From: a virus
Direction: 5' to 3' (one strand)
Length of the DNA stretch: 64,000 nucleotides
IMG/VR virus record: IMGVR_UViG_3300022868_000009
Coordinates: 62,001-126,000 of that record
The notes beneath the pieces are model-generated. The model was not told the origin of the DNA. It saw nothing but the letters and a program-made list of their open reading frames with translations, and did no database searches. How positions within the stretch are numbered: position 1 is the stretch's first letter; every line of letters begins with the position of its first letter. This document shows positions 17,723-59,083 of this stretch, piece after piece. Position numbers and translations under genes: made by a program.

Positions 17723-17813
17723 TTTTTGTCGATTATTTTAAAAATACTTTTTCTTTTTTATATATAATAAAAAATCAACATCCAGTTTGGAAAATCTATT
17801 TAATGAAAATGAT

Positions 17814-18917
17814 ATGAGTAAAAAATTAACTATAGAAGATATAAGAAATAAAAGTGATAATATACACAAAACAAAATATATAATAAAAGACCAATCATTT
17901 GAAAATAATAAATCTAAAATTGAAATTAAATGCGTTGAATGTGGTTATATATTTTTTCAACAAATCAACAACCACATAAATAGAGGAGATGGTTGTCCCA
18001 AATGTTATGGTAAAAATAAAAAAACAATAAATGAAATAAGAGATCTTAGTAAAAAAATTCATGGAAATATTTATGAAATACCAGAACAAAAATATATAAA
18101 CATGAAATCTAAAATACAAATTTTATGTAAAAAATGTAATACTTATTTTTCTCAATCATCTAATAATCACATTTACCAAAAACAAGGTTGTGTATTATGT
18201 AATGGTAATAATAAATTATCTTTACAAGATATTGTAAAAAAAGATACACAAAACAACAAAGAAAAATTTGAAATACCTGAACAAGAAATAAAAAACACTA
18301 GTCAAAAAATTAAAATTTATTGTAATGATTGCAAATCATATTTTTACAGAAATATAAATTCACATATAAATAGAAAATCAAAATATTGTCCTAATTGTTC
18401 TCCTGTACAGAAATTGACATTAAAAAAAATAAGAGAAAAAAGTCTACTTTTACATAAAGGAAAATATATAATACCTGATCAAACATTTGTAAACAATACT
18501 TCATTCATAAAAATATATTGCAAAAAATGTAAACAAATATATAAACAAAAAATAATGGTTCACTTAGATAATAGAATTAAAGGATGTAATAATTGTAAAT
18601 GTTCTAAAGGTGAAATTACAATATCAAACATATTAAAAAACAATAAAATAGATTTCATAACACAAAAAAGATTTAAAAATTGTAGATATAAATTACCTTT
18701 ACCGTTTGATTTTTATTTAACAGAAAAAAATTTATGCATTGAATATGATGGTGAATTACATTATATTTCAAAAGATTATTTTGGTGGTGATGAAAAACTA
18801 AAAGAAACACAAAGAAATGATAAAATAAAAACAGAATATTGCGAAAAAAATAAAATAAAATTATTAAGAATTAAATATGATGAAAATATCATCGAAAAAT
18901 TAAAAGAGATAATGTGA
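17814..18917 (+). CDS. Vsr-like homing endonuclease with zinc-ribbon repeats
   Basis: 367 residues from MSKKLTIEDIRN (an in-frame ATG at 17787 is also possible). The N-terminal part has four repeats, each with a CxxC pair separated from a second CxxC (for example CVECGYIF and CPKCYG), likely DNA-binding zinc ribbons. The C-terminus FDFYLTEKNLCIEYDGELHY plus KLLRIKYDENI is a Vsr/EDxHD-like nuclease core. Free-standing homing endonucleases of this type spread between phages by cutting target genes. It is transcribed opposite to the genes before it. The stop overlaps the next GTG start. Confidence 0.75.
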   Translation: MSKKLTIEDIRNKSDNIHKTKYIIKDQSFENNKSKIEIKCVECGYIFFQQINNHINRGDGCPKCYGKNKKTINEIRDLSKKIHGNIYEIPEQKYINMKSKIQILCKKCNTYFSQSSNNHIYQKQGCVLCNGNNKLSLQDIVKKDTQNNKEKFEIPEQEIKNTSQKIKIYCNDCKSYFYRNINSHINRKSKYCPNCSPVQKLTLKKIREKSLLLHKGKYIIPDQTFVNNTSFIKIYCKKCKQIYKQKIMVHLDNRIKGCNNCKCSKGEITISNILKNNKIDFITQKRFKNCRYKLPLPFDFYLTEKNLCIEYDGELHYISKDYFGGDEKLKETQRNDKIKTEYCEKNKIKLLRIKYDENIIEKLKEIM

Positions 18918-20636: not shown

Positions 20637-21089
20637 TTAACCATTCAATTCTCTTTCAGTATCTCTTTCAATATCCCTATTTTTAATAGATTCTTTCTTT
20701 TGAAATAATTTTTTACCTTTAGCCAATGCAATTTCTACTTTAGCTAAACCTTTATCATTAATAAATAATCTTGTTGGTACAATTGTTAACCCTTTTTCAC
20801 TAACACCCTTTTTGAGTTTCTTCAATTGTTTCTTAGTTAATAACAATTTTCTATCACGTTTTGGTTCATGATTATTAATAGTACCCATTTCATATTCAGC
20901 AATATGAAGACTTTTTAAATACAATCCATCTTCTTTAAAAATGCAAAATGAATCTGTAAAAGAAACATTACCATTTCTAATAGATTTAATTTCAGTACCT
21001 AATAATATCATACCAGCTACATATGTATTTATCCACTCATATAAGTATGAGGCTTTTTTATATTTTATATTTATATCTTTATTTTGCAT
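20637..21089 (-). CDS. smpB: SsrA-binding protein SmpB
   Basis: 150 residues matching SmpB throughout. SYLYEWINTYVAGMILLGTE and IKSIRNGNVSFTDSF form the OB-fold tmRNA-binding face. LHIAEYEMG and HEPKRDRKLLL follow in the usual order, and the tail GKKLFQKKESIKNRDIERDT is the basic C-terminal helix that enters the decoding centre. Length is normal. SmpB with tmRNA rescues stalled ribosomes. No tmRNA gene was found in this window, so it may work with host or distant phage tmRNA. Confidence 0.92.
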   Translation of the reverse strand: MQNKDINIKYKKASYLYEWINTYVAGMILLGTEIKSIRNGNVSFTDSFCIFKEDGLYLKSLHIAEYEMGTINNHEPKRDRKLLLTKKQLKKLKKGVSEKGLTIVPTRLFINDKGLAKVEIALAKGKKLFQKKESIKNRDIERDTERELNG

Positions 21090-22019: not shown

Positions 22020-22050
22020 AAAAAAGCCCCTTTTTTTAGGGGCTTTTTTA
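22020..22050. terminator. Bidirectional intrinsic terminator
   Basis: A hairpin of AAAAAAGCCCC and GGGGCTTTTTT around a short T-rich loop lies between two convergent genes. The A run on one side and T run on the other allow termination in both directions. The 160 bases before it (21857-22019) contain no gene. An AATAG...CTATT inverted repeat there may be part of a 3' UTR. Confidence 0.85.
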
Positions 22051-22061
22051 TTTCAAATATT

Positions 22062-23020
22062 CTATTGTTTTATTATTTTTTCACTTGTTATTAAGTTATT
22101 ATATTCATCATAAACAAAATATATATTCCATTAGATAGGCTTCTTAAATCTAATTCTGAATCTCCATTTAAAACTAATTGTCCTGTTGAATTATAAAGAT
22201 TTGTTTTTACATTATTATCAGAAACTTTTACATAATCAGTTGTAGGGTTAGGATATACTGTTACATTTGATTCGATATTTTCAACTTCTATTTTTTCTGT
22301 AGTTAAATCATAAAGTGAAATAATTTCAGATTCATTAAGAACTTTATCATAGATTGTAATATCATCTAAAATACCATTAAGAAAGTTTGCATTACCAATT
22401 TTAAATATCTCGATATCATTGATTGTTGTACCAGTAAAAAGACCATCACTAGCACTAGTACTGTAAGATTCATGTAAAATTGTATTACCATCGAATAAAT
22501 ATAAATTATAAACATTATCAGAAGAAGAACAAGTAATAGAATAAAAGTACCATGAATCATTTTCTGAAAGTGTTATTTCACAGGATTTTCCTCCATATTG
22601 ATATCCATATGATTGAAGTCTTAACTTATTATGGTCGACAATCAATTCAATAAATTTGTAAGGACCAATACATCTCAATTTAAATACATTACCTTCAGTT
22701 GAATTGTCAATTTTAATCCATCCCGTTATACTAATAGAATCTAAATCCAAATTATTTAAGGTATATGGATCAATATCTATATCACCACCATTAAAAGAAT
22801 AAGCATCGTTATTTAACCCACTGTGTCCTACATCAGGTGTAATATTACCAAGTAAAATATCATCCATATCACCAACAAACCAATTTGATGTTTCATCCCA
22901 TACATATCCTTCTATGATATCGGTTTCGTAATTAAATTTCCATTCTGCAATGGGGTTAAGTTGTGAAATGCTTACCAAACAGAATATTGTCATTATCAAA
23001 GTTAAAAAGATTTTTTTCAT
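22062..23020 (-). CDS. Secreted LamG protein with type IX sorting domain, C-term frame broken
   Basis: The N-terminus MKKIFLTLIMTIFCLVSISQ is a Sec signal peptide. Residues about 25-245 form a LamG/concanavalin-like domain (IAEWKFN start, ILDDITIYDKVLNESEI end). The C-terminus VTVYPNPTTDYVKVSD, LYNSTGQLVLNG and LSNGIYI is a type A sorting domain of the Bacteroidota type IX secretion system. The frame stops at 22091. One extra T in the TTTT run after TATA (coding strand) would restore VYDEYNNLITSEKIIK ending at 22062, the typical basic end of such domains. The cargo is probably acquired from the host and acts outside the infected cell or on its surface. Confidence 0.8.
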
Positions 23021-23149
23021 AATTTTAGTTTTTTGTAGTTAGTTAATATTTTATTTCTGATTCAGTTTAAATATACTACATTTTTTCAAGAATAAAAAAT
23101 TTAATGAAAAATATTAAACAACCCCCTCAACTATAATATATATTTTTAT

Positions 23150-23365
23150 ATGAATATAAAAAAGTTAGAACTTAGAAATTTTAAGTCTTTCGGTAACGCA
23201 ACTCAGGTTTTAGAATTTGATGATGATGGAAAACTTATTTTTCTCTCAGGAAAAAATGGATCGGGAAAGTGCGTTTCTCCTGATACTATATTAGAAATAG
23301 AAGTCGATGATGATATTAAACTTCAATTGATTGAATTTTTAGAAAAAAGAAATTTGCCGTTGTAG
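23150..23365 (+). CDS. gp46/SbcC-like recombination ATPase, N-extein plus IntN of a split intein
   Basis: Residues 1-40 are the N-terminus of a Rad50/SbcC-type ATPase (MNIKKLELRNFKSFG) ending at GKNGSGK, the Walker A loop. Residue 41 is Cys, followed by VSPDTILEIEVDD, an intein block A start. The frame stops after 31 intein residues. The missing Ser of Walker A and the rest of the ATPase are on the 24609 gene after an intein C-terminus. A 31-residue IntN is characteristic of atypically split inteins. An upstream AT-rich region (23021-23149) holds the likely promoter. Confidence 0.88.
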   Translation: MNIKKLELRNFKSFGNATQVLEFDDDGKLIFLSGKNGSGKCVSPDTILEIEVDDDIKLQLIEFLEKRNLPL

Positions 23366-23385
23366 CCTAGTTAATATATAAAAAT

Positions 23386-24612
23386 ATGTTAACTAAAGAA
23401 AAATTAAACAATGACAATTTTTTCAAAAATTTTAAAGAATGTTATATCATACATCTTGTTGAAGAATATGGTGATCATTGTACAGACAAATTAAAAAATA
23501 AAATTAAACAAGATTTAAAAACCTGTTGCGAAAAAAATTCAATTAAAAGTCTACCCAATAGAAATAAAAACTACTGGTTAATTAGAGGATGGTCTATGGA
23601 AGAAACAACACTTAAAATAAACGATATTAATAATTTGAGAAAGAAAATTAAAATTACTATTTTAAATAAAGAATTTTGGATTGAAAAAGGTTTCACCGAA
23701 ATAGAATCTATCAAAAAAATCTCAAAAATTCAAAGTGAAAGATCCAAGAAAATGCATAAGAAAAGAAAAGAAAATCCAGAAAATTACAAACCAATACTAT
23801 CACCATTTACTGAAGAATTTTGGATTAAAAAGGGTATTACAAATAAAGAAGAAATTAATTTTAAAATAAAATCTCAAAGAAAACTTAATGTAGAATTTTG
23901 GTTAAATAGAGGACATAACACCAAAGAATCAATTAAATTAGTTAAAAATTATCAATCTGAAAATTCAAAAAAACGTCAAGATAAATGGAAAGATAAAAAA
24001 CATTTAGTTGATTATTTAAAACAATTTAACACAAATATAGAATTTTATTTAGATAAAGGTTTTTCTATAGAAAAAAGCCAAGAATTATTAAAAGAAAGAC
24101 AATCAACTTTCACTTTAGAAAAATGTATTATTAAACATGGATTTAAAAATGGTACTTTAATATTTAATAATAGACAAACAAAATGGAAAGAAAAAGTCTT
24201 TAATGAAAATACTTGTATTGCTAATGGTACGAGTATGATATCAGAAAAATATATACATTCTGTGATAAGCAAAATTAACAATGATAAAATTACAGATCTT
24301 TTCAAATATGGAAAAGACGAAAAATTTATTTATGATAATAAATTAAAAAAATGTTACAAATATGATTTAACTTATAAGAAAAAAATAGTGGAATTTCATG
24401 GTGATTTTTGGCATTGTAACCCAAAAATATATAATGAAAATGAAATACACAAAGTAATTAAATTAACAAGCAAAGAAATTTGGGCTAATGATAAAAGGAA
24501 AAAAGATTGTGCTGTTGAGAATAATTATGATATTTTTATAATTTGGGAAAGCGAATATTTACATGATCCTGTCAAAAGTATTGAAAATACAATAAAATTT
24601 TTAGAATTATGA
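23386..24612 (+). CDS. Vsr-like (EDxHD-type) homing endonuclease inside the fractured gene
   Basis: 408 residues. The C-terminal YDLTYKKKIVEFHGDFWHCN and DIFIIWESEYLHDP form a Vsr-like nuclease core with acidic and His residues. The N-terminal part has repeated EFWIEKG/EFWLNRG helical units, likely DNA binding. It lies between the two intein halves and its ATGA stop/start overlaps the downstream half. This is the layout of reported fractured phage genes with split inteins and this nuclease family. Confidence 0.82.
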   Translation: MLTKEKLNNDNFFKNFKECYIIHLVEEYGDHCTDKLKNKIKQDLKTCCEKNSIKSLPNRNKNYWLIRGWSMEETTLKINDINNLRKKIKITILNKEFWIEKGFTEIESIKKISKIQSERSKKMHKKRKENPENYKPILSPFTEEFWIKKGITNKEEINFKIKSQRKLNVEFWLNRGHNTKESIKLVKNYQSENSKKRQDKWKDKKHLVDYLKQFNTNIEFYLDKGFSIEKSQELLKERQSTFTLEKCIIKHGFKNGTLIFNNRQTKWKEKVFNENTCIANGTSMISEKYIHSVISKINNDKITDLFKYGKDEKFIYDNKLKKCYKYDLTYKKKIVEFHGDFWHCNPKIYNENEIHKVIKLTSKEIWANDKRKKDCAVENNYDIFIIWESEYLHDPVKSIENTIKFLEL

Positions 24613-26576
24613 AAATTACAATAAAAGATTTATATGATTTTAACTTAGAAACTGACTTAATAAATAAAGGTAAATTTAAAGTTAAAACTAAGAATGGTTT
24701 TAAAAAAATTGATGCAATTGATATAACTGACATTAGTTCAAAAATTGTGATAAATACAAAAAGTGATAAAATTAAAACATCACCAGATCATCTTTTATCA
24801 AAATTTGACGATTGGATATTTGTCAAAAATTTAAAAATTGGTGATTATATTGATTGTATTAATGGTCCCGAACAAATTACCAATATTGAAATTGATGAAA
24901 TAGTAGAAGAATTATATGATATTCAAGTTGATGGAGAAGAATATTTTGCAAATAACTTTAGAACTCATAATTCATCTTTACGACAATGTATAGACTTTGC
25001 ACTATTCCATAAAGTTAGAGGTAAAACAAAAAAAGTTCTTTCAGTTAAGAAACTACCAAATAGACACAATAAAAGTCTTTATGTTGGATTATGGTTTGAT
25101 AATTATAAAGGTGATGAAATAGTTATTAAAAAATATCTAGAACCACAAAAATTCGAAATGACAATAAATGAAGAACCATTTGAGAAAAAATTCTCTAAAA
25201 TGACTGATCCTGAAAAAGAAAATCTACTAGGATTTAGTTATAACATATTTCAAAACTTCATATCAATGTCACTTAATAACTTCAAAAATTTTGTATCATT
25301 ATCTAAAGATGATAAAGAAACAGTCCTAAATAAATTATTTAATTTAGAAGAACTAAATTCACTACAAAATATAACAAAACAACTAAAAAAAGACTTACAA
25401 AAGAACAGATCTAGTGTTTATGAAGAATTGCAAGAGAAAAAGACAAGAATAGATGAATTAAATAATATTATATCAAAATTAAACTCTAATAATAGTATAA
25501 ATAAAGTAGAAAGAATCAAAGAGATTAATATCAAATTAGTTGAATATAAAAACAGAAGTGGTATATTAACCAATAAGAATATCGAAATTAGTAAAGAAAT
25601 TGAAGTTTATAATCAAAAATTAATGAAATTTGCTAGTAATAAAACACAAGGAGATAGAATGATTACAACAAACGAACTTAAAATTGAAAACATAGAAGAA
25701 AAATTAGATGCTTTCAATAAAGGAATATGTCCTATATGTGATAGTAATTTAAATACTAATAAACATAAATCAAAAATTGGTGAATTTAGTACAACTGTAA
25801 AAAAATTAAATGAAAAAAACGAAGAAGTTGAAGAACAATTAATAAAAGTAGTAACACTTGATACAAAATATAGAAATAAAAAGAGTACTTTGTATAATGA
25901 ATTAAGTAAGAATAAACAAGAACTTGATTTAATCAAAGAAAATTTTACTAAATTTAAATTAGAAAAATCTTCATTAAAACAACAAAACTTTGATTCTATT
26001 GATGAATTAAACAAAGAAAAAGAGCTACACAAAAAAAGAGTTAATTCATTATTACCTAATTTTAATAAATATAAAGATAAAGAACCAATTTATGATGAAC
26101 TAATTAATATATTTTCAGGTGATGTTATTAGAAATAATATTATTAAAAATATATTAAAATCAGTTAATTATTATCTTCAAGATTTTTTAACCAAATTAGA
26201 ATATCCATATGACGTTGAATTGGACATGAATTTCAATGCCATAATTAAAGAAAAAGAAAAAATCGACCCTGAAACATTATCTGGAGGAGAAGATAAAAAA
26301 ATTAATGTTGCTATTGCTTTATCATATTTGTGTTTAATACTTGATGTTAAACATAGTAATTTATTATTTTTAGATGAAATATTTGATTCAATTGACATTG
26401 AAAGTGTAGACTTATTATTGAACTTACTTAAAGAAATATCAGAAAAATATAAAATCAATATTATCATTGTTCACCATAATGATGTTAATTTACAACATTT
26501 TGATAGAATAATTAGAACTAAAAAAGATTTATTTAGTGATATTGAAGAAATTGATTTAGTAAATGAGAAGAATTAA
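24609..26576 (+). CDS. IntC of split intein plus gp46/SbcC-like ATPase body
   Basis: Residues 1-121 form an intein C-part: block B (TSPDHLL, TxxH) at 57-63, then VKNLKIGDYI, DIQVDGEEYFANN and the terminal HN at 120-121. Residue 122 is the +1 Ser, which completes Walker A as GKS. The C-extein (534 residues) has a Rad50 zinc hook CPICDSN, coiled coils, the signature LSGGEDKK, Walker B LLFLDEIFD and the switch IIVHHND. Spliced product about 574 residues. In T4, gp46 with gp47 is the nuclease complex for recombination and host DNA breakdown. No gp47 gene is in the window. Confidence 0.9.
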   Translation: MKITIKDLYDFNLETDLINKGKFKVKTKNGFKKIDAIDITDISSKIVINTKSDKIKTSPDHLLSKFDDWIFVKNLKIGDYIDCINGPEQITNIEIDEIVEELYDIQVDGEEYFANNFRTHNSSLRQCIDFALFHKVRGKTKKVLSVKKLPNRHNKSLYVGLWFDNYKGDEIVIKKYLEPQKFEMTINEEPFEKKFSKMTDPEKENLLGFSYNIFQNFISMSLNNFKNFVSLSKDDKETVLNKLFNLEELNSLQNITKQLKKDLQKNRSSVYEELQEKKTRIDELNNIISKLNSNNSINKVERIKEINIKLVEYKNRSGILTNKNIEISKEIEVYNQKLMKFASNKTQGDRMITTNELKIENIEEKLDAFNKGICPICDSNLNTNKHKSKIGEFSTTVKKLNEKNEEVEEQLIKVVTLDTKYRNKKSTLYNELSKNKQELDLIKENFTKFKLEKSSLKQQNFDSIDELNKEKELHKKRVNSLLPNFNKYKDKEPIYDELINIFSGDVIRNNIIKNILKSVNYYLQDFLTKLEYPYDVELDMNFNAIIKEKEKIDPETLSGGEDKKINVAIALSYLCLILDVKHSNLLFLDEIFDSIDIESVDLLLNLLKEISEKYKINIIIVHHNDVNLQHFDRIIRTKKDLFSDIEEIDLVNEKN

Positions 26577-29591: not shown

Positions 29592-29956
29592 GGATCAACT
29601 ATTTCTTCATTTTTAACAATTACTGGTTCTTCAACCGGTTTTTCAATCGGTATTTCGGGTTCTTTCTTATTTTCTGCCGTATTTTGTTTAGTTTCGTGAT
29701 ATTTATTTATTCCAAGTAAAGTTAATTGGTGAGTTAAAAGCGAACCAAAAACAATTATTATTTCACTTGACAATATATATTTACCAGTAGATAATATAGA
29801 TGTAATGGCTGTGTAAATTTCTATCCCTAAAAATACAAAACAAAATAAAGATATAAAGAAAGTTATAATATATGCAATTAATCTTGTAGAACTTTCTTTT
29901 CCACCCTTTGGTGAGTTAATTGATGATCTAATTAATGATAAAAATCTTTTAAACAT
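29588..29956 (-). CDS. Small two-TM membrane protein, holin-like
   Basis: 122 residues. Two hydrophobic segments (LIAYIITFFISLFCFVFLG and a second around YILSSEIIIVFGSLLTHQL) are followed by a charged, Pro/Glu-rich C-terminus. The N-terminal SSTRLIAYIITFF pattern and topology resemble class II-type holins, but no lysin gene is nearby, so the call is tentative. Confidence 0.4.
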   Translation of the reverse strand: MFKRFLSLIRSSINSPKGGKESSTRLIAYIITFFISLFCFVFLGIEIYTAITSILSTGKYILSSEIIIVFGSLLTHQLTLLGINKYHETKQNTAENKKEPEIPIEKPVEEPVIVKNEEIVDP

Positions 29957-29968
29957 AATATCTTTTTT

Positions 29969-30550
29969 TTAACTATCATATACTTGTTGTGTATGTGAAT
30001 TCTTTGCACTATAAATATATTCGTGGTCATAAGTTGGATTTACTCCAAACCTTTTAAATGTTATATAAATATCTTCTAAACACTCCATATCAGCACCACC
30101 TACTAATGTAACATTTTTTCCAATTAATCTTCTTATTAATAATACAAGTTCATTATTAACAAAAAACCATTTATGATTATGTTTATCATTATAAATTATA
30201 TATGTATCTGTATCACCAATTTTAAATAATTTACCTGGTCCAAAATCTTTTTGTTGTTTAACAGTCTCTACGTGCTTTAAAAGTTCATCATCAAACCATT
30301 TATGTCCAAATCTTTTTGGAATATTTTCACTGTTTCCATTTTTATTTTTAAACGTATAAAGTGGTTTTAAAGGAACTTTATTAGTGTCATATATCTGATA
30401 AACTTGATTAAATTCTTTTGCATAATCTTGCAACTTTGATACAAATCCCTGTGGAATATGTTTTGAAAATTCCTGTTGAACATCAACAATCACTAAAATA
30501 TCATTATTTATAATTTGTGATTCTATTAAGTTACTAAACTTCTTTATCAT
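29969..30550 (-). CDS. Isochorismatase-like hydrolase with N-terminal tag
   Basis: 193 residues. ILVIVDVQQEF is the first strand and catalytic Asp of isochorismatase-like cysteine hydrolases. VTLVGGADMECLEDIYITF carries the nucleophile Cys at the end of its strand. Residues 1-11 (MIKKFSNLIES) fit the recurring tag with L-I-E. The family includes nicotinamidase, which would fit the NAD genes at 56-59 kb, but specificity cannot be read. The middle Lys of the triad is not certain. Confidence 0.6.
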   Translation of the reverse strand: MIKKFSNLIESQIINNDILVIVDVQQEFSKHIPQGFVSKLQDYAKEFNQVYQIYDTNKVPLKPLYTFKNKNGNSENIPKRFGHKWFDDELLKHVETVKQQKDFGPGKLFKIGDTDTYIIYNDKHNHKWFFVNNELVLLIRRLIGKNVTLVGGADMECLEDIYITFKRFGVNPTYDHEYIYSAKNSHTQQVYDS

Positions 30551-30788
30551 CTAAAATGTCTTTAATTTCTTTTAAAACAACTTTATGATTTTCATCTAAT
30601 TTAGATTCATCTAATTTTTCGATTTCCTCTAACCATATCCAAACTAATTGTTCAGGAGTCAAATCTTCAAATTCAATATCGTAGTCTTCAACATGTTTAA
30701 TTGCAAGACCAATACTCTCATAAATAACATAATCAACATCATCATATGATTCTATAACAATTCCATATTTATTATGTTTTTCTTCCAT
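30534..30788 (-). CDS. Small acidic protein
   Basis: 84 residues from the ATG at 30788 (MEEKHNKYGIVIESYDDVDY). A longer frame to 30899 crosses AT-rich intergenic sequence and the start of the divergent gene. Highly acidic, with LTPEQLVWIWLEEIEKL. No recognised domain. It overlaps the isochorismatase-like gene by 17 bases. Confidence 0.5.
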   Translation of the reverse strand: MEEKHNKYGIVIESYDDVDYVIYESIGLAIKHVEDYDIEFEDLTPEQLVWIWLEEIEKLDESKLDENHKVVLKEIKDILDDKEV

Positions 30789-30880
30789 ACAAATATATAT
30801 AAAATAAAAATTCTTATGAATTTTAGAAAATTTTGACTTTATTATATTTATATATAAATATAAATAAATATAAATATAAT

Positions 30881-31117
30881 ATGAAAAAACAAAAAACATT
30901 TACAATTGATATGGATATTTGGGAAAAATTTAATGAAATAAGCAAACAAAAATCTATCAATAAATCTTTATTAATAGAAAATCATTTAAGAGATATCATT
31001 TATTTAAACGAAAACCCAAAACATTTTATTATCGTTGGAGATGAAATAAAATTATTAAAATATTCATTAAATGAAAATGAAATTTATATATTAGACGCAA
31101 AACCAAATATAAAATAA
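30881..31117 (+). CDS. Small protein with ribbon-helix-helix-like N-terminus
   Basis: 78 residues from the ATG at 30881 (MKKQKTFTIDMDIWEKFNEI). The pattern beta strand TFTIDMDIWEKFNEISKQ, then helix SINKSLLIENHLRDII, fits a ribbon-helix-helix DNA-binding domain of CopG type. The last 30 residues are unassigned. It overlaps the ATG of the following endonuclease by 1 base. It could repress its own operon or the endonuclease (inference). Confidence 0.5.
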   Translation: MKKQKTFTIDMDIWEKFNEISKQKSINKSLLIENHLRDIIYLNENPKHFIIVGDEIKLLKYSLNENEIYILDAKPNIK

Positions 31118-32694
31118 TGATATTAACCAAATCAGTCAAAGTTAAAGTGCATTCATCTATGGTAAAATACTATCAGAGTAAAGGATATGAATGCAAATAT
31201 AAAGATATAATTGATATTAAAGTAAAAGATCTAAAACAAAAAAGTACAGTAATTGTCGAAGTTGAATGTGATATATGTGGTGAAAAGAAAAATATACCAT
31301 TGTTTAGATATAACAACAATTTTAATAATAAAAATATGTATGTTTGTTCAGCTTCTTGCGCACAAACAAAAATAAAATTAACTAAATTAGAAAATCATGG
31401 AGATGAAAATTTTTCAAATATTAAAAAACGAAAAGAAACATGCAAAGAAAGATACAACAACGAAAATTATAAGAATATTGAAAAAAAGAAAGAGACAAAT
31501 ATAGAAAGATATGGAGTTGAACACGTGATAATGAATGAAAATATAAAAAATAAAAGACTAGAAACATATAAAAAATTATATGGTGAAGAGCACCCAATGA
31601 AAAATAATGATATAATTCTAAAGAAAAAACAAACATCTAAAAATAAACATGGTGATAAAAATTATAACAACATACAAAAAACACTCAAAACAATTAAAAA
31701 TAAACAACTTCAAAATATTGAAAAATATAATATTAAAGCTATCAATTATCAAGATTTTCTTTTTGAAGTTGAATGTGATAAAGGACACAATTATAAAATA
31801 TCATTCGATTTATTATACAAAAGACATAAATATAATGTAGAAAAATGTACAATATGTAATCCTATTGGAATCAAATATTCAAATAGTGAGTATAATTTAT
31901 TACAATTCATTAAAGAAAATTATAATGGTGAAATAATAAAAAATTCAAGAAAAATAATAAAACCGTATGAATTAGACATATTTTTACCAAATTTAAATTT
32001 AGCATTTGAATATAATGGATTATGGTGGCACAATGAATTATATAAAGATAAAAATTATCACAAAACTAAAAGTGATTTATGTGATAAAAATAATATACAA
32101 TTAATACATATATGGGAAGATAACTGGATTTATAAACAAGATATAGTTAAATCTATGATATTAAATAAATTAGGTAAAACACTAAATAAAATATATGCAA
32201 GAAAATGTGAAATTAGAGAAATTAAAAATAATGATTTAATAAAACAATTTTTAAACAATAATCATATACAAGGTTTTGTTGGTTCGAGTGTAAAATTGGG
32301 TTTATATTACAATAATGAATTAACTTCTTTAATGACTTTTAAAAAAGATAATAATAATTTTGAATTAAACAGATTTTGTAATAAGTTAAATACTAATGTT
32401 ATTGGTGGTGCATCTAAATTATTTAAATACTTTACTAAAAATTATAACTTTTATGAAATAAAAACATTTGCAGATAGAACTTATTCAAATGGAAACTTAT
32501 ATTTTAAGATGAATTTTAAAATAGGTAAATTTATAAAACCAGATTATTATTATATTGTTAATGGTATTAGAAAACATAAATTTAATTTTAGAAAACAAAA
32601 AGATAACATAAAAACAGAACATGAAATTATGTTAGAAAAAAATATTTATAGAATATATGACGCAGGTAAATATAGATTTACCTACTCATTATAA
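31117..32694 (+). CDS. Large phage homing endonuclease, paralogue 1
   Basis: 525 residues. Residues about 45-85 have a zinc finger (CDICGEKK ... CSASC). Next come degenerate KERY/IERYGVEH repeats, a second CTICNP finger, and a nuclease core ELDIFLPNLNLAFEYNGLWW plus HIWEDNW (EDxHD-like). The C-terminal module has QGFVGSSVKLGLYY, NRFCNKLNTNVIGGASKLF and ADRTYSNGNLY. Two close paralogues lie at 33580 and 38168. It runs opposite to, and flanks, a putative virion gene. Confidence 0.75.
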   Translation: MILTKSVKVKVHSSMVKYYQSKGYECKYKDIIDIKVKDLKQKSTVIVEVECDICGEKKNIPLFRYNNNFNNKNMYVCSASCAQTKIKLTKLENHGDENFSNIKKRKETCKERYNNENYKNIEKKKETNIERYGVEHVIMNENIKNKRLETYKKLYGEEHPMKNNDIILKKKQTSKNKHGDKNYNNIQKTLKTIKNKQLQNIEKYNIKAINYQDFLFEVECDKGHNYKISFDLLYKRHKYNVEKCTICNPIGIKYSNSEYNLLQFIKENYNGEIIKNSRKIIKPYELDIFLPNLNLAFEYNGLWWHNELYKDKNYHKTKSDLCDKNNIQLIHIWEDNWIYKQDIVKSMILNKLGKTLNKIYARKCEIREIKNNDLIKQFLNNNHIQGFVGSSVKLGLYYNNELTSLMTFKKDNNNFELNRFCNKLNTNVIGGASKLFKYFTKNYNFYEIKTFADRTYSNGNLYFKMNFKIGKFIKPDYYYIVNGIRKHKFNFRKQKDNIKTEHEIMLEKNIYRIYDAGKYRFTYSL

Positions 32695-33478
32695 ACCAAC
32701 TAACTTGAGATTCACCTTTAATTTTCTCTTCAACCTTCGTTACCAATTCTTTCCCTTCAGAAATCATGTCGGCTGCGTTATATTGAAAATTACCTGGCAT
32801 TGGCATATTAAATCTACCAACTACTTCACCCTGTCTAACTTTTGACAAACCTATAACATAATCTTTAAACATATAAAGATCAAATAATTCTTCTTGTTGG
32901 ACTCTCAAATAAACTTCTAACATTAAATCAACTGGATATCCACCTTCATCAACATTCGTAAGAATCTTAAGTTGTTTATTAAAATGATTAAATGAGAACA
33001 TTAACGTAGGTTTATTCATTTTATTAAGTTCATCAGAAAAAGCTGAAATAACAGAACGATAAACACCTAAATCACCAACAGTTGTAACAAAAGATGTTAA
33101 AAATGGTTGGTTAGTCACACCAAGATTAATTGAAAGATGTGGTGCTTGAATTCCTAATCTAAATAAACTTGGATCATCTATTTTAACTATTCTAGTTATA
33201 TTTTCTACTTCTTCAGGTAAAATAAAATATTTATGTGCAGTGTAACAATCATGTGATAAACACTCATGAGGTAACCAGTAATAAGATTTTTGAACTGCAA
33301 ATTGATAATTTTTATAAAACCATTCTAATGCATGTTCTTTAATTATTCTTTTTATTTCTCTATCTGGTAAAATTTTAGGAAATAATCCAGAAATAGTTAA
33401 TTCTTGATTAACAATATCAACTAATTGCTCTAATGTTATTTGGCCATCATAATTTTGTCCACCTGCTGTATTATACAT
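32678..33478 (-). CDS. Putative virion/neck protein
   Basis: 266 residues with no enzyme motif. ITLEQLVDIVNQELTISGLF, NMPMPGNFQYNAADM and the YYWLPHECLSHDCYTAHKYF block give it the look of a conserved structural or head-completion protein of large T4-like phages. It sits between two homing endonucleases, which typically target conserved essential genes. The exact homologue is not identified. Confidence 0.4.
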   Translation of the reverse strand: MYNTAGGQNYDGQITLEQLVDIVNQELTISGLFPKILPDREIKRIIKEHALEWFYKNYQFAVQKSYYWLPHECLSHDCYTAHKYFILPEEVENITRIVKIDDPSLFRLGIQAPHLSINLGVTNQPFLTSFVTTVGDLGVYRSVISAFSDELNKMNKPTLMFSFNHFNKQLKILTNVDEGGYPVDLMLEVYLRVQQEELFDLYMFKDYVIGLSKVRQGEVVGRFNMPMPGNFQYNAADMISEGKELVTKVEEKIKGESQVSWFIMSR

Positions 33479-33579
33479 ATTTACATATTTATTTTCTATT
33501 ATTATATATTAAAAAAAATTTTTCTTAATTCTGGTGTTTTTAAACCTAACCTTTTAATATATAAAGATAAATTAAATAT

Positions 33580-35226
33580 ATGTTATTAACAAAGAATATT
33601 AAAATTAAAATAAATAATAGGTATATAAAATATTATCAAAATCTTGGATATCAGGTAAAAGGCGGTCAAGAATGTGAAATAAAAATAGAAGATTTATCAA
33701 AAAAAAGCCACGCTTTTGTTGATGTTAAATGTGATATATGTCAAGAAGAAAAAACAATTAAATATTATAATTATACTGAAAATATACTAAATCAGGGTTT
33801 TTACACTTGTAAAAAATGTAAACATCATAAGACAAAAATCACAAATCTAGAGAAATATGGTGTAGAATGTACATTACAATCTGATGATGTTTTAGAAAAG
33901 ATAAAAAATAAAAACATAGAAAAATTTGGCACAGACCATTATTCAAAAACAAATGAATTTAAAGAAAAAATAAAAGAGACAAATCTAGAAAAATATGGTG
34001 TTGAAAGTAATATGCAATCAATCGAATTTAAGGAAAAATCTATATTATTTAATCTGAAAAGTTACGGTGTTGATCATTATTCAAAGACTAATGAATTTAA
34101 AGAAAAAGTAAAAAAAACAAATTTAGAAAAATATGGTGTTGATCATTATTCAAAAACTGATGAATTCAAGGAGAAGTTGTCTAAAAACCATTTTTTAAAA
34201 CTTAAAAAAGAAAACAACAATCTTAAAGAGATAAATGGTGATGAATATGTGATATATTGTGATAAATGTGATAAAGATTATACTATTCATAAATGGTTAT
34301 ATAAAAATAGAAAAAAGAAATATAAAACTAATACTTGTTTATATTGTAATCCTATAAATTCTTCTAAATCTGGAATGGAATTAAAATTATTAGAATTTAT
34401 AAAAGATAATTATAATGAAAAAATTGTTTATGGTAATAGAAAAATTATACCACCTAAAGAATTAGATATTTATTTACCAAATTTAAAATTGGCATTTGAG
34501 TTTAATGGTGTATATTGGCACAACGAATTAAACAAACATAACAAATATCATTTAGAAAAAACAGAAAAATGTCTAGAAAAAGGAATACAATTAATTCATG
34601 TTTTTGAAGATGATTGGATTTATAAACAAGATATAGTAAAATCTAGAATTTTGAATTTAATTGGAAAATCTAAAAAAATATTTGCTCGAAAATGTGAAAT
34701 TAAATTAGTCAATGATAATAAAGTTATTAGAAATTTTCTAGATGAAAATCATTTACAAGGGTTTGTAGGGAGCAAAATAAAATTGGGTTTGTATTATAAT
34801 GATGAATTAGTAAGTTTAATGACTTTTGGAAATTTGAGAAAACCTTTAAATCAGTCAAAAAAGGATGGGTCATTTGAATTATTAAGATTTTGTAATAAAT
34901 TGAGCATTTATGTTATTGGTGGTGCTTCAAAATTATTTAATTATTTCTTAAAAAACTATGAAATTTGTGAAATAATAAGTTATGCGGATAGAAGTTGGAG
35001 TAATGGAAATTTATATGAAAAACTTGGTTTTGAATTTATACATAAAACACAACCTAACTATTATTATATAATAGGCAATCTTAGAAAACATAGATTTAAT
35101 TTCAGGAAAGATAAATTAATTAAAGAAGGTTTTGATTCAAATAAAACCGAACATGAAATAATGTTAGAAAGGGAAATATATCGAATATATGATAGCGGTA
35201 GTTTAAAATATAGTTATTTAATATAA
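33580..35226 (+). CDS. Large phage homing endonuclease, paralogue 2
   Basis: 548 residues. Zinc finger CDICQEEK ... CKKCK, then five units of a 25-residue repeat centred on NLEKYGV with DHYSKTNEFKEK, then CLYCNP. The nuclease core is ELDIYLPNLKLAFEFNGVYW with HVFEDDW. The C-terminal module (LQGFVGSKIKLGLYY, FCNKLSIYVIGGASKLF, YADRSWSNGNLYEKLGF) is shared with its paralogues. It overlaps the convergent LRR gene by 9 bases. Confidence 0.78.
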   Translation: MLLTKNIKIKINNRYIKYYQNLGYQVKGGQECEIKIEDLSKKSHAFVDVKCDICQEEKTIKYYNYTENILNQGFYTCKKCKHHKTKITNLEKYGVECTLQSDDVLEKIKNKNIEKFGTDHYSKTNEFKEKIKETNLEKYGVESNMQSIEFKEKSILFNLKSYGVDHYSKTNEFKEKVKKTNLEKYGVDHYSKTDEFKEKLSKNHFLKLKKENNNLKEINGDEYVIYCDKCDKDYTIHKWLYKNRKKKYKTNTCLYCNPINSSKSGMELKLLEFIKDNYNEKIVYGNRKIIPPKELDIYLPNLKLAFEFNGVYWHNELNKHNKYHLEKTEKCLEKGIQLIHVFEDDWIYKQDIVKSRILNLIGKSKKIFARKCEIKLVNDNKVIRNFLDENHLQGFVGSKIKLGLYYNDELVSLMTFGNLRKPLNQSKKDGSFELLRFCNKLSIYVIGGASKLFNYFLKNYEICEIISYADRSWSNGNLYEKLGFEFIHKTQPNYYYIIGNLRKHRFNFRKDKLIKEGFDSNKTEHEIMLEREIYRIYDSGSLKYSYLI

Positions 35227-38167: not shown

Positions 38168-39979
38168 TTAATTCTTAAAAATGTATTTATAATTACCACT
38201 ATTATATATTCTATAAATACCTCTTTCTATCATTATTTGATGTTCACTTTTATCTAAATCAAAACCTTCTTTAACCAACACGTCTTTTCTATATCCAAAC
38301 CTATATTTTCTCACACCATCTACTACATAATAATAATTTGGTTTAGAAATATGAGATAATTCAAAACCTAAATTTTCATATAATTTGCCATTTGAATGTG
38401 ATCTATCTGCATAACTTATTATTTTTTTAAAAAAATAATTTTTAGTAAAATGTTTAAACAATTTTGAAGCACCACCAATAACATTAGTATTTAACTTATT
38501 ACAAAATCTTATAAGTTCAAATTCACCTTCTACACTAGAAGAATTTTGAGACTTTCTTTTTTTACCAAAAGTCATTAAAGAAACTAACTCATTTTCATAA
38601 TAAAGACCTAGTTTAATACTAGAACCAACAAAACCTTGTAAATGATTATCATCTAGAAATTTTCTTATCAATTTATTATCTTCAATAACTTTAATTTCAC
38701 ATTTTCTTGCATAAATTCTATTTGGTGTTTTACCTATTTTGTTTAATATTATGGATTTAACTATGTCTTGTTTATACAACCAATCATCTTCCCAAATATG
38801 TGTTAGCTGAACACCTTTTTTAAAACAATTATCTGTTTTATTTAAATGATAATTATTATCTTTATTTAATTCGTTATGCCAATACAAACCATTAAATTCA
38901 AAAGCTAATTTCAAATTTGGTAAATAAATATCTAATTCTAATGGTTTAATAACATCTCTATCTGATGTTTCAATGACACCAGTATAATTTTCTTCAATAA
39001 AACTTAATAATTGTATTTCTAATCCTGATGTGTGTTGATTAATTGGGTTGCAAATAGTACACAATTCAGTTTTACATTTAACTCTATTTGAAAACAAGGA
39101 TGAATTAATAATATAATCATGTCCTTTATCACATAATATTGTATATTCTTTATTATCAAAATCAATATTCAAAAAATTTAAATAACTATAATTACTTAAA
39201 AGATATTTTTTAGTTCTTTTTCTATTATTCTCTTTAATATTTTTTATAACTTTTTCTGTTTGAAAATAATTTTCAACACCATATCTTTCTAAGATTGTAG
39301 TTTTTCTTTTTTCTTTTAATTCATTAGAATATGATGGATTTTCAACACCATAATTTTCCATTAATGATTTTATTGATTTCTCTCTAATTTCTTCTGATTG
39401 TTGAGGATACTCTACACCATACTTTTCTAAATTTGTTTTTTTAATTTTATCTTTTATTTCTTCTGATTCAAACGGATTTTCAACACCATATTTTTCTAGA
39501 TTTGTTTTGGATATTTTATCACGTATCTCTTTATTAGATAGAGAAAATTCAACACCATACTTTTCTAGATTTGTTTGTTTTTGCTTTCTTTTTACACACT
39601 CATTTTGAGTAAAATGTTCGACACCATATTTTTCCAAACTTGTTTTTTTAACTCTATCAACATATTCCTCAGTCTGTGTATAATATTCACTGCCATATTT
39701 TTCAAATGTTGTCTTTTTAACTTTTTCTTGAGCACACTTAGAACTACAAGCATAAAACCCACCATTATTAATATTTTTAACATATTTTTGATACATTAAA
39801 TCCTTTTCATTATTACAAAAATCACATTTTACTTTTATTTTTACATGACTACCATCAGATAAATATTTAGGATGTATATTTAAAATATCTCCCAATTGTA
39901 CATCTTTCGAATATTCTTCTTTTAGTTTACTTAAATTTCTTTTTGTTACTTTAATTAATGTTTTTTCTGTTAAAATCAT
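38168..39979 (-). CDS. Large phage homing endonuclease, paralogue 3
   Basis: 603 residues, the longest of the three. Zinc finger CDFCNNEK ... CSSKC, then seven or eight copies of the NLEKYGVE repeat, CTICNP, and the core ELDIYLPNLKLAFEFNGLYW with HIWEDDW. The C-terminal LQGFVGSSIKLGLYY and YADRSHSNGKLYENLGF module is shared with the others. It follows putative virion genes and is divergent from the amidoligase-like gene. The number of repeats varies between paralogues, which suggests slippage or recombination. Confidence 0.78.
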   Translation of the reverse strand: MILTEKTLIKVTKRNLSKLKEEYSKDVQLGDILNIHPKYLSDGSHVKIKVKCDFCNNEKDLMYQKYVKNINNGGFYACSSKCAQEKVKKTTFEKYGSEYYTQTEEYVDRVKKTSLEKYGVEHFTQNECVKRKQKQTNLEKYGVEFSLSNKEIRDKISKTNLEKYGVENPFESEEIKDKIKKTNLEKYGVEYPQQSEEIREKSIKSLMENYGVENPSYSNELKEKRKTTILERYGVENYFQTEKVIKNIKENNRKRTKKYLLSNYSYLNFLNIDFDNKEYTILCDKGHDYIINSSLFSNRVKCKTELCTICNPINQHTSGLEIQLLSFIEENYTGVIETSDRDVIKPLELDIYLPNLKLAFEFNGLYWHNELNKDNNYHLNKTDNCFKKGVQLTHIWEDDWLYKQDIVKSIILNKIGKTPNRIYARKCEIKVIEDNKLIRKFLDDNHLQGFVGSSIKLGLYYENELVSLMTFGKKRKSQNSSSVEGEFELIRFCNKLNTNVIGGASKLFKHFTKNYFFKKIISYADRSHSNGKLYENLGFELSHISKPNYYYVVDGVRKYRFGYRKDVLVKEGFDLDKSEHQIMIERGIYRIYNSGNYKYIFKN

Positions 39980-49205: not shown

Positions 49206-49535
49206 ATGAAATTCTTTTACCTAATATTACTATTTTTACTATCCCTCACAATTTCCGCACAAAAAATTTACAAAGTTGATTATAAATATGATGCAGATAT
49301 AAAAGTATATGTTGCTGATTATAAATATGATGCAGATTTGATTGTTTATATCGTAGATTATAAATATGATGCAAATAAAGATGGTTTATGGTATTTCGTA
49401 AATTATAAATATGATGCAGATAAGACAATTTATTTTGTAGATTATAAATACGATGCAAATTTAATAATTTACTTCTGTGATTATAAGTATGATGTAGGTT
49501 GGAAAAATAAATCTAAAATACATTTATTAAGATAA
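49206..49535 (+). CDS. Secreted repeat protein (YKYDA repeats, DUF6150-like)
   Basis: 109 residues. Signal peptide MKFFYLILLFLLSLTISAQ with the SAQ cleavage site usual in Bacteroidota. Six tandem units of about 15 residues follow, each with VDYKYDADxxVYxV. Such proteins occur in Bacteroidota genomes as a family of unknown function. The nucleotide repeats (GATTATAAATATGATGCA) are well conserved. It is probably a host-acquired gene. Role in infection unknown. Confidence 0.7.
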   Translation: MKFFYLILLFLLSLTISAQKIYKVDYKYDADIKVYVADYKYDADLIVYIVDYKYDANKDGLWYFVNYKYDADKTIYFVDYKYDANLIIYFCDYKYDVGWKNKSKIHLLR

Positions 49536-50124: not shown

Positions 50125-51372
50125 ATATAGTCTGTGCTTGGGCAGACGTTCATCTTCGGATGGAGCAGATAAAACATCGTAAGGTGTCGAAAGAGAGGAA
50201 GGTCACTTATTCTCGCCAATAGTCTTCGGATTATGGTCAATCTAAGCAAGTCTCATTTTTGTCTTGACCAACAAGACAGCCTCAATAGAAAGGGGATAAG
50301 ATGAAACAACGTGAGTAACGATCTTTGGTAAGAATAAGATGGCTCAATTGCCCGCAAGGGGAACAAAAGTTATCAAATATAGAATGGGGACATTCCAATA
50401 TCGTTTAATCCACTCATTAAGTGTTCGTTGATAGATAAGAGATAGAATAGTAGTTCGAATGTGGAAAGTTAGAGCATTATTCAGTTTCAAAGGTGTTGAA
50501 AGATGTCTTAACAAACGGCACAGTAAGTCCTCCGGGCTGAAACGCATACGAAGGGTCGTATTTTGTAAGGTGAAACTTATGAATCGGTGGACAGGCACTT
50601 TGTGGTGATATCATTTTTTATTAGCTCACAATGGTAGAGCAGTAGTATTCTAACTAAAGGTAGATGGTTCAATTCCATCATAAAAAAAGCAAAGTCCCTG
50701 TCCGTCTGTTAAGTAAAGGTGCTTAAAACTTTACACTTCGGTGAATAAAGTGGATTCAAAGCTCGCAAGGTAGAGAATCTTTGATACAGTAGCCTCAACT
50801 TTTAACCCTAGCAGGTTATTAACGCCACGATAGTGGTGAGTGTACGCAAAATATCGAGTAACTTAATAGTACTAGTGATGTAACCACATAAAAAGTTACA
50901 GTACAGCTGGTGTACATAGTTGCCTTTCGAGGGATTATGTGGACAATTCAGGAACGAAGAATAGCAACTCTTTGATAATCTGAAGAAAGCAAAACATATA
51001 ATAAACTGTGTGTTTTACCAGTATGACAGTTTTTAGTCTCAAAATTGTTTCTCTATCAAGATAAAAACCTTGACGTGGTGATAGAGCTTTAAACTAATAT
51101 TTATCAAATGTGAAAAAAGTAGTAGAAATTAAAAGACGCAACACGCAGCCCGTTCTCTGCGCTACTTCACAAAAATGTGAACGATAAAAATCTTCACATT
51201 TAAATACACCAAGAATAACACCATCACTGTAGCCCTAAAGGAGTGATGTTGTCGCATAAAAACGATTAGTGTTAGTGTGTGTTTGAGAAGACGACGGGGG
51301 ATTTCACAAAAGTAACATGAATCAAGTAGTGTGAAATAAGAAATTCCTCCAAGTTTTCTCGGAAAATTTTTT
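50125..51372 (+). ncRNA. Giant structured noncoding RNA (GOLLD/ROOL-like by context)
   Basis: About 1.25 kb with higher GC than its flanks and no plausible coding frame on the plus strand. Many hairpins can be read directly: GTCTG/CAGAC (50130-50147), UUCG tetraloops at 50151-50162 and 50219-50234, a GCAA tetraloop on CCC/GGG (50351-50360), ATACGA/TCGTAT (50546-50561), CTCTATCA/TGATAGAG (51051-51086), a 9-bp helix 51106-51114/51193-51201, CATCACT/AGTGATG (51222-51248) and ATTTCACA/TGTGAAAT (51301-51337). A weak hairpin plus T7 at 51353-51370 may end it. Large ornate RNAs of this size occur in phages beside tRNAs. The strand is inferred from the tRNA-like domain and the orientation of the downstream tRNAs. 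Exact ends and class are unproven. Confidence 0.75.
50615..50687 (+). tRNA. tRNA-like cloverleaf embedded in the giant RNA
   Basis: A 73-base cloverleaf: acceptor TTTTTAT/ATAAAAA (7 bp), D arm GCTC/GAGC with GG in the loop, T arm GATGG/CCATC around TTCAATT. By position the anticodon triplet would be TCT (Arg) after U33, but the anticodon stem (GTAGT/CTAAA) hardly pairs. An alternative TAGT/ACTA helix leaves a 6-base loop. No CCA is encoded. It is enclosed by a 14-bp helix with one mismatch (50589-50602 with 50690-50703), so it is built as an arm of the larger RNA. Decoding function is doubtful. Confidence 0.75.
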
Positions 51373-55985: not shown

Positions 55986-57293
55986 ATGAGAAATATACAA
56001 AAATTATCAGAAAAAGAATTAATAGTACATTTAAAATCTATCTATAATAAACAGATAGATATTTATGATAAATTTGAAAAAACAGGTGAAATTGAACCAA
56101 TTATTACCGATTTTGATGATCAAGATGCATATAAATATTTTATGCAATATGCAATCTTTAAAACTCACCCAAACGCAATAGTAAAATTTAAATTTTTTAA
56201 CCGTGGAAAACATAAATTTCCAGTCGGTTCAGATTATCATATTAAAAAACAAATAGAATCTATGAAAAATCTTAGATTCACTCCTGAAATAGAAAGATCA
56301 TTTAGAAAAAAATTTTCAAATATGAAAGGTGAATCTTATTTTGATGAATCTTTTTATGGTTTTTTAAGAAGTTATAGATACGATCCATCTGAAGTTAAAG
56401 TAACTCAAACAGGAGAAGATATCGAAATAGAAATAACTGGTTCTTGGTTAAAAACAATTTATTGGGAAACACAAATAATGCCGATTTTAACAGAAACTTG
56501 GTATATGTTAACTGATCAATATAAAAATATTCATAATTTTGATCATCTATATGATACACACAGAGACAAATATCGAAGTTTTATAACAGCCGAATCTAAT
56601 ATTGCAGAATTTGGTTTAAGAAGAAGATATTCAAAACTAATACAAGAATTTATCAATATACATTTTATGTGGGAATCACCAGCTAGATATATTGGTACGT
56701 CTAATTGTATGTTCGCTAGAAAATTTAATGTTAAAGCCATTGGAACACAAGCTCATGAATGGATAATGTTTCATGCCGCAAAATATGGACCAGAACTAGC
56801 AAATAAGATATCTTTAGAAAATTGGGTTAAAGTTTACAGAGGAGAATTAGGTATTGCGTTATCTGATACTTATGGTACAGACAATTTCTTAAAATCATTT
56901 GATACTTTACATAGTAAATTATTTGATGGTGTTAGATGGGATTCTGGTGATTTTAAATTATTTACTGATAAAATAATTGGACACTATAAATCATATGGAA
57001 TTAATCCTAAATCCAAAACAATTGTCTATTCTGATGGTATAAATTCATTTTTAAAAATACGAGATATTATAAGATATGCAAGTGATAAAATTAAATGCAC
57101 GTTAGGAATTGGTACTTATTTAACAAATGATATTGGTGTACCAACTATGAATATTGTTATTAAAATGACAGAAGCTAAACCTGAAAAAATGGATTGGAGA
57201 TATTGTATAAAGACATCTGATTCATCTGGTAAATATACTTATACTGACAAAAAAACATTAAACAGATACTTAGAAGATTTGAATATAAATTAA
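55986..57293 (+). CDS. pncB: Nicotinate phosphoribosyltransferase
   Basis: 435 residues, normal for PncB. TDFDDQDAYKYFMQ at the start, FNRGKHKFPVG, EFGLRRRYSK, GTSNCMFARKF, GTQAHEWIM (catalytic His region), ALSDTYGTDNF, GVRWDSGDF, IVYSDGINSF and LGIGTYLTND are all in the expected order. It makes nicotinate mononucleotide from nicotinate and PRPP, the first Preiss-Handler step. With nadE and a Nudix gene downstream it forms an NAD module, perhaps countering host NAD depletion. Confidence 0.93.
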   Translation: MRNIQKLSEKELIVHLKSIYNKQIDIYDKFEKTGEIEPIITDFDDQDAYKYFMQYAIFKTHPNAIVKFKFFNRGKHKFPVGSDYHIKKQIESMKNLRFTPEIERSFRKKFSNMKGESYFDESFYGFLRSYRYDPSEVKVTQTGEDIEIEITGSWLKTIYWETQIMPILTETWYMLTDQYKNIHNFDHLYDTHRDKYRSFITAESNIAEFGLRRRYSKLIQEFINIHFMWESPARYIGTSNCMFARKFNVKAIGTQAHEWIMFHAAKYGPELANKISLENWVKVYRGELGIALSDTYGTDNFLKSFDTLHSKLFDGVRWDSGDFKLFTDKIIGHYKSYGINPKSKTIVYSDGINSFLKIRDIIRYASDKIKCTLGIGTYLTNDIGVPTMNIVIKMTEAKPEKMDWRYCIKTSDSSGKYTYTDKKTLNRYLEDLNIN

Positions 57294-58219: not shown

Positions 58220-59083
58220 ATGAAAAATATAATAAATTACGACAAAGTACTTGAAAATTCAAGATTTTTACTAAAAGAAAAAATTACAAGAACTAAACTT
58301 AAATCATTAGTATTGGGTATTAGTGGTGGAGTTGATTCAGCAATTGTTGCAGCAATTGCTAAACCTATATGTGATGAATTAAATATTCCTTTAATAGGAA
58401 GATATATTCATATAGAAAGTAATAAGAAAGAAGAAAAAGAAAGAGCTGAAGATATTGGAAAAGCGTTTTGCACTGATTTCCAATCAATTGATCTTACAGA
58501 ATACTTTGATACATTAAAAAATCTAGATGAAATGGATAATGAAGGTTCTCCTTATTCTGAATATGATTATCAATCAAAATTAATTAGACTTGGTAATATA
58601 AAAGCTAGAACAAGAATGATTTATCTTTATAATTTAGCTTCAAAAAATGGTGGTTTAGTATTAGGTACAGACAATTTAACTGAATATTATTTGGGATTTT
58701 GGACTTTGCACGGTGATGTTGGTGATTTTGGTTTAATTCAAAATCTTTGGAAGTCTGAAGTACATGAATTAACATTACATTTAGCTAAAAGTTTAAATGA
58801 AAAAGGTAAAGTGTTAGTTGATTGTGCAATGGCAAATGCTACTGATGGTCTTGGAATAAGTGAGACTGATCTAGAACAAATTATGCCAGATTGGAAAGAA
58901 AGACATAATACAACTGCAAGTGGTTATTCAGAAATTGATAAAAAATTACAATCTTATTTAAAAGATATTAGTAAAGGAGAAAACATTTCAAAATATAATA
59001 ATGATCCAGTAATTGAAAGACATAGATCATCTTTCTTCAAAAGAATAAACCCAGAAAGTATAGATAGAGAAGAATTAATTTAA
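58220..59083 (+). CDS. nadE: NAD synthetase, ammonia-type
   Basis: 287 residues, the length of NH3-dependent NadE without a glutaminase domain. LGISGGVDSAIVAA (35-40 is the ATP P-loop SGGVDS), GNIKARTRMIYLYN, VLGTDNLTEYYLGFWTLHGD and the late RHRSSFFKRINPES are the family motifs. It amidates nicotinate adenine dinucleotide to NAD. With pncB it supplies two of three Preiss-Handler steps. No nadD was seen in the window. Confidence 0.93.
   Translation: MKNIINYDKVLENSRFLLKEKITRTKLKSLVLGISGGVDSAIVAAIAKPICDELNIPLIGRYIHIESNKKEEKERAEDIGKAFCTDFQSIDLTEYFDTLKNLDEMDNEGSPYSEYDYQSKLIRLGNIKARTRMIYLYNLASKNGGLVLGTDNLTEYYLGFWTLHGDVGDFGLIQNLWKSEVHELTLHLAKSLNEKGKVLVDCAMANATDGLGISETDLEQIMPDWKERHNTTASGYSEIDKKLQSYLKDISKGENISKYNNDPVIERHRSSFFKRINPESIDREELI

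Follow-up and report, generated by a model that had tools for sequence, protein, structure and literature searches.

A LamG protein with a type IX secretion sorting domain in a Mahaphage-type phage and the recurrence of such sorting domains in related phages

Type A cargo proteins of the Bacteroidota type IX secretion system (T9SS), such as RemA and RemZ, NucA, PorZ and the gingipains, combine a signal peptide, a passenger and a C-terminal sorting domain (PF18962/TIGR04183); the passenger of RemA, for example, includes a lectin domain (PMC12618676). The type A tag has been reported to be necessary and sufficient for T9SS secretion and to be restricted to the phylum Bacteroidota (PMC10202324). 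Phages are known to carry such genes. In Cryophage, proteins that bear type A T9SS sorting domains were described as a unique occurrence, and a role in superinfection exclusion was proposed (Bellas et al. 2020, PMC7468147). In the crAss-BACON cluster 2 of Bacteroidetes phages, T9SS-sorted proteins are found near carbohydrate-binding BACON domains (PMC6949934, 2019).

The gene analysed here, with its putative signal peptide, appears to share the architecture of the Bacteroidota type A cargo but is encoded by a phage, and motif E of its sorting domain is out of frame. It resembles the Cryophage genes in that type A tags are attached to glycan-related passengers that vary between phages; however, endoglucanase, GH39 and PA14 serve as passengers there (PMC7468147), in place of the LamG domain seen here. 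It differs from crAss-BACON cluster 2 in belonging to another phage lineage and in carrying LamG rather than BACON, which in that cluster lies near head genes (PMC6949934). Phage-encoded T9SS cargo as such is already known (2019, 2020), and this gene adds a LamG example. What is new, compared with Cryophage, is found in the Mahaphage lineage, namely, the lineage-wide habit of encoding such cargo, small genes that code for little besides a tag, and the apparent replacement of a tag.

The Mahaphage clade includes phages with genomes of 634-735 kb and predicted Bacteroidetes hosts (Al-Shayeb et al. 2020, PMC7162821). The authors of that study noted that surface-located phage proteins may affect infection by other phages, and the word 'secretion' does not occur in its main text (PMC7162821). 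The T9SS tags in the Mahaphage genomes were found in the present analysis; among open-licence papers, we found no published report of Mahaphage T9SS cargo, nor any description of a stand-alone tag gene or of a cargo with a conserved passenger and a replaced tag.

The LamG cargo gene and its phage

The stretch of DNA that was analysed (hereafter, the window; 64,000 nucleotides) covers positions 62001-126000 of the 344,634-bp virus record IMGVR_UViG_3300022868_000009, a metagenomic contig. The record contains matches to a gp23-like major capsid protein, prohead protease, portal and tail sheath, which identify a T4-like jumbo phage. Its capsid protein shares 64% identity with the LR756501 (735 kb) protein over 100% of the length, and 49-51% with those of the 634-642-kb phages, that is, 49-64% for four phages of 634-735 kb; the identity is 33% to LR756500 (462 kb) and 29% to the Lak phages. 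By this relation to the 634-735 kb phages, the phage is of the Mahaphage type. TAG terminates 19 of the 244 long ORFs in the record, so genetic code 11 is adequate for its translation. A tRNA with a CTA anticodon (window 50614-50688, plus strand), which ARAGORN reports as tRNA-Pyl, is a possible amber suppressor despite these TAG stops.

The cargo gene is a minus-strand ORF that, as coded, encodes 309 amino acids (Table 1) and starts with MKKIFLTLIMTIFCLVSIS followed by QLNP. By eye and by a hydrophobicity rule, the charge, hydrophobic core and length of MKKIFLTLIMTIFCLVSIS preceding the Q are all compatible with a Sec signal peptide, and its look is typical of Bacteroidota. The signal peptides of the other proteins described below were likewise judged by composition. 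Downstream, the Laminin_G_3 domain was detected with an E-value of 3.7e-9 (37.3 bits against the Pfam cut-off of 27.6), the sole LamG_3 match in the whole 344-kb record. Two profiles recognized the sorting domain. Por_Secre_tail (PF18962) matched over positions 1-62 of 75 with an E-value of 1.7e-8 and a score of 35 bits, where the cut-off is 27; the NCBIfam model for the 'T9SS type A sorting domain', TIGR04183, matched over positions 1-56 of 72 with 27 bits, where 23 are required. Because the LamG_3 and sorting-domain matches are above the curated cut-offs, they are not due to chance. A single-sequence AlphaFold model of the cargo protein had a pLDDT of 41 and was unusable.

An earlier note, made from the letters alone, had read this gene as T9SS cargo carried by a phage and had named Bacteroidota as the host phylum. 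The first claim is confirmed: with both domains above cut-off and structural phage genes in the record, this is a phage gene with a putative signal peptide, a LamG domain and a type A T9SS tag. The second one is upheld by the reported restriction of the tag to this phylum and by the predicted Bacteroidetes hosts of the Mahaphages, the nearest named phages. Surface display, coating of infected cells, blocking of other phages and glycan binding, which the note also raised, are putative roles.

Table 1. Positions of the features discussed (window coordinates unless a locus is named)
Feature	Position	Strand	Remarks
LamG cargo ORF	22091..23020	-	signal peptide, LamG_3, truncated type A T9SS sorting domain
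Sec-type signal peptide MKKIFLTLIMTIFCLVSIS	22964..23020	-	cleavage probable before Q20; judged by composition
LamG_3 (PF13385, Laminin_G_3), concanavalin A-like lectin domain	22322..22756	-	residues 89-233, Pfam
Type A sorting domain (PF18962/TIGR04183)	22109..22258	-	residues 255-304; complete up to GIY motif
(AT)4 run	22119..22126	-	point where the coded frame and the frame of the domain end part; sequence
End of sorting domain FVYDEYNNLITSEKIIKQ, motif E, and stop	22062..22118	-	frame other than the coded one
Terminator-like stem between convergent deoC and LamG genes	22028..22042		plus strand; 1 found against 0.3 expected
Intergenic region between the divergent LamG (-) and split gp46/Rad50-like (+) genes	23021..23149		sequence
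Orthologous 712-aa T9SS cargo	L198 4565-6703; L201 5597-7735		passenger conserved, tag replaced
Stand-alone tag genes	L102 4001-4399; L105 6396-6728; L106 5997-6374; L107 5999-6370; L089 1495-1902		synteny

The LamG gene is solitary, with a convergent deoC gene on one side and a divergent gp46/Rad50-like gene on the other side. A run of A on the other side of the stem that separates deoC from the LamG gene suggests that this terminator could serve both genes. An SmpB gene is located near deoC (window 20637-21089, minus strand, E 2.9e-50). The gp46/Rad50-like gene (window 23150-26576, plus strand), which is continuous in LR756502 and LR745206, is split by a split intein exactly in the Walker A motif, between GKNGSGK and SSLRQ. 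Its N-terminal half, CVSPDTILEIEV..., stops at 23362 and the C-terminal half ends with FRTHN; between the halves lies a free-standing 408-aa ORF (23386-24612) with, by eye, a VSR-like endonuclease-type C-terminus, a layout that presumably resembles the 'fractured gene' arrangement. Homing-endonuclease-like genes (phrog_559/phrog_3339 or DUF7487) are dispersed in the window (17787-18917, 31117-32694, 33580-35226 and 38168-39979). Elsewhere in the window, genes for nicotinate phosphoribosyltransferase and NAD synthase lie close by each other (55986-57293 and 58220-59083, plus strand), suggesting a phage NAD supply or repair of the NAD depletion caused by defences, and a DUF6150 protein with a signal peptide (49206-49535, plus strand, E 6e-38) is another Bacteroidota-type exported protein.

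Outside the window, the record contains a row of five exported-type genes on one strand (record 29938-34224; L004 9938-14224) that encode a DUF6150-like protein, a shortened propeller, a 443-aa T9SS cargo, a 549-aa protein and a 114-aa protein. The GC content of the 549-aa protein gene, 0.352, is clearly higher than 0.255 +/- 0.032. The 443-aa protein (record 30791-32122) combines a signal peptide with an intact type A tag at the C-terminus; this tag is borderline, with 27.4 bits, or 28 bits for the C-terminal 74 residues, against the cut-off of 27, and was unlisted in the whole-protein scan. A short-seed search detected no homologues of this second cargo in bacterial genomes. Within the phage's own record, neither a type B CTD nor SprA was matched, but the controls were unmatched as well, so that these negatives carry no information.

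A frame break within the sorting domain

The coded frame of the cargo ORF terminates with ...NGIYILFMMNIIT and a stop. No lysine follows the GIY motif in this tail, and the ORF as recorded has no intact C-terminal motif E with the conserved lysines. The alternative frame, followed down to 22062, the start coordinate used in the earlier note, gives ...FVYDEYNNLITSEKIIKQ and a stop. When the reading is continued in that frame, the TIGR04183 match extends over positions 1-72 of 72 (39.9 bits) and the PF18962 match extends to position 74 of 75; because the isolated C-terminal segment was scored, these bit scores are not directly comparable with the whole-protein scores. Against a profile of 13 phage sorting domains, as few as 6 of 3000 shuffled tails scored at least as high as the real out-of-frame tail, so the out-of-frame end is the true end of the domain rather than a chance match.

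Efficient T9SS secretion is reported to require the last 13 residues of the tag and the lysines of motif E (PMC10202324). The recorded allele, having no in-frame motif E, is therefore predicted to be secreted poorly or not at all, and it is not classed here as a working T9SS type A cargo. Judging from the sequence, impairment of this allele is probable, except if an assembly error or variation in the population accounts for the number of bases in the AT run. The frameshifted C-terminus that the earlier note had pointed out is indeed present in the record, with the domain end in the other frame; a protein search and two exact DNA searches of IMG/VR detected no second copy of the cargo locus.

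The break could be genuine, that is, a dinucleotide-length change that disrupted the tag of a decaying cargo gene, the product of which would be stuck in the periplasm or degraded. We consider such decay quite possible, albeit short of an even chance. The break sits within the last motif, the remainder of the domain can still be read in the alternative frame, and the shortened propeller encoded in the row of exported genes of the same record (30324-30794) has a tag-like end fragment that scores 13 bits, below the cut-off, as if remnants accumulate. However, the other 300 codons of the cargo gene are open and, together with the legible tail, this implies that any decay is very recent; furthermore, an error in the contig would be an alternative source of the break.

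Such an error, introduced in the AT run during sequencing or assembly, would mean that the real gene possesses a complete, working tag; it appears slightly less likely than decay. It would fit the observations that all of the cargo gene except for the tail is intact and that the tags of the relatives, in the alignment of phage sorting domains, are complete as a rule. Yet a two-base slip in a short (AT)4 run is atypical for short reads, and IMG/VR yielded no second contig for comparison. Programmed frameshifting at the break is not favoured, given that inspection by eye of the coded frame showed no slippery heptamer of the canonical form X XXY YYZ there. Phase variation was considered as well; the (AT)4 run is short for this mechanism, and a second allele was not found in IMG/VR.

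Sorting domains across related phages

Independent of the allele in the window, T9SS cargo is a lineage-wide habit of the Mahaphage-type phages. All five nearest named phages, which are the phages of Al-Shayeb et al. 2020 that were tested, show PF18962 matches: two in LR756501 (735 kb), one in LR756502 (642 kb), two in LR745206 (634 kb), one in LR756504 (636 kb), and one, below the cut-off (4.2e-4), in LR756500 (W05, 462 kb). In two sets of IMG/VR records, mostly fragments, the domain was detected in 4 of 43 and 7 of 40. A type A tag is carried by 10 of the 15 related records that are 170 kb or longer, compared with none of the 7 T4-like phages of non-Bacteroidota hosts (cyanobacteria or Proteobacteria) searched with PF18962 (Fisher p 0.005). 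Counting against the role favoured below, the lineage members Lak, PTm1, MA9V-1 and G047 lack the tag; the PF18962 search was negative for two Lak phages, PTm1, MA9V-1 and one 597-kb IMG/VR record.

The passengers vary among the tagged relatives and include CotH, Fib_succ_major, a Reg_prop propeller, and MAM with GEVED. The earlier note had suggested a search for homologues in host genomes and other phages. The tag recurs in related phages; for the LamG passenger, searches of phages, IMG/VR and the GTDB species set, which detect close relatives only, found none. A plasmid search with the cargo protein produced one weak archaeal LamG match. In LR756501, a type A tag lies mid-way in a 446-aa protein (L086 625-1962) and is followed by Fib_succ_major, an unusual internal position.

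Two phages (G048 and G071) encode an orthologous 712-aa cargo; a partial match of a 712-aa protein to ExeM/NucH nucleases is far below the cut-off. Between the two phages, the passenger is 84-90% identical, with a dN/dS of about 0.03-0.1. Identity drops to 26% over the C-terminal 80 residues, although both ends score as type A tags. From the alignment of this one pair, the tag looks to have been replaced.

Five distinct relatives encode a protein of 110-136 aa in which a signal peptide is joined to a type A CTD by about 40-60 residues, with little else. The gene is syntenic and adjoins a T4-like exonuclease-like gene (L102/L074, L106/L075, L107, L105/L073 and L089); at the related loci L109/L110 and L111, these neighbours are present but the stand-alone tag gene is missing. 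For one pair of the tag genes, dN/dS was 0.21 over the full length and 0.09 in the CTD half. A model of the small protein, built from an alignment of IMG/VR loci only, had a pLDDT of 69, with about 78-92 over the CTD. The nearest folds, none with E < 0.001, include 8gl8_D, 8glk_D, 5m11 and 8gl6_D, and the CTDs of RemZ, NucA, RemA and PorZ are among them; the family profile matched the NucA CTD chain 8glk_D with an E-value of 4.6e-6. By profile and model, the small protein has the CTD fold of T9SS cargo, and, among solved structures, the chains most similar to it are SprA-PorV-bound CTDs (8glk_D; 8gl8_D and 8gl6_D).

These genes might reflect a modular 'address tag' strategy, in which the phages would retain their exported passengers but swap sorting domains according to the shuttle of the host, and near-passengerless tags would engage SprA-PorV and rewire display; we offer this as an unlikely, speculative scenario. 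The phage-made CTD proteins might also be decoys that tie up the PorV/SprA translocon of the host, such that T9SS-dependent phage receptors of the host are no longer displayed, resulting in exclusion by jamming. The best fit for such jamming would be the stand-alone signal-peptide-plus-tag genes: five distinct, syntenic small proteins with CTDs that resemble the SprA-PorV-bound chains and, in one pair, a low dN/dS in the CTD half. However, small T9SS effectors occur naturally (PMC10202324), and the window protein carries a large passenger. Moreover, PorV is apparently in excess or recycled, coping even with overproduced type A fusions (PMC12618676); because it is apparently not limiting, simple jamming of the translocon is improbable and is given low weight.

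The least credible alternative, that the LamG gene is a host gene fragment in a chimeric contig, is rejected: although the domain architecture is host-like and no passenger homologue was found among phages, the gene is flanked by phage genes (the SmpB/deoC side and gp46), genes of the same kind are present in curated complete huge phages, and its GC3 of 0.148 equals that of the phage (0.137 +/- 0.034), which rules out a stray piece of host DNA that differs in composition.

A proposed role in remodelling the infected cell

We favour, with a probability of roughly 0.6, the reading that the cargo gene is a phage-carried 'moron' for the host T9SS, encoding an exported surface protein that remodels the infected cell. 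Behind this reading stand the domains and their order, the phage context, the recurrence, and the selection on the related cargo and on the small tag gene; from these, we infer export, display and a benefit of the LamG cargo. Under this scenario, Sec would move the product to the host periplasm, and the type A C-terminal domain would be recognized by the host PorV/SprA translocon. Once exported, the LamG domain would either be tethered to the outside of the infected Bacteroidota cell or be released there, and it would most likely alter surface binding, with glycans or receptors being masked or remodelled. The altered surface may help to exclude competing phages or help the infected cells to adhere, over the probably long cycle of a very large phage. 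A role as a virion component is unlikely because of the putative signal peptide.

If this reading is true, a lineage that includes a 735-kb phage, the largest when described (2020), routinely uses the surface export machine of its hosts, and the tag would provide a testable route by which uncultured phages alter infected cells, through competitor exclusion, adhesion or glycan masking. The type A tag would then also serve as a marker of Bacteroidota hosts, and the exchanged and minimal sorting signals of these phages would constitute a natural set for studies of T9SS recognition.
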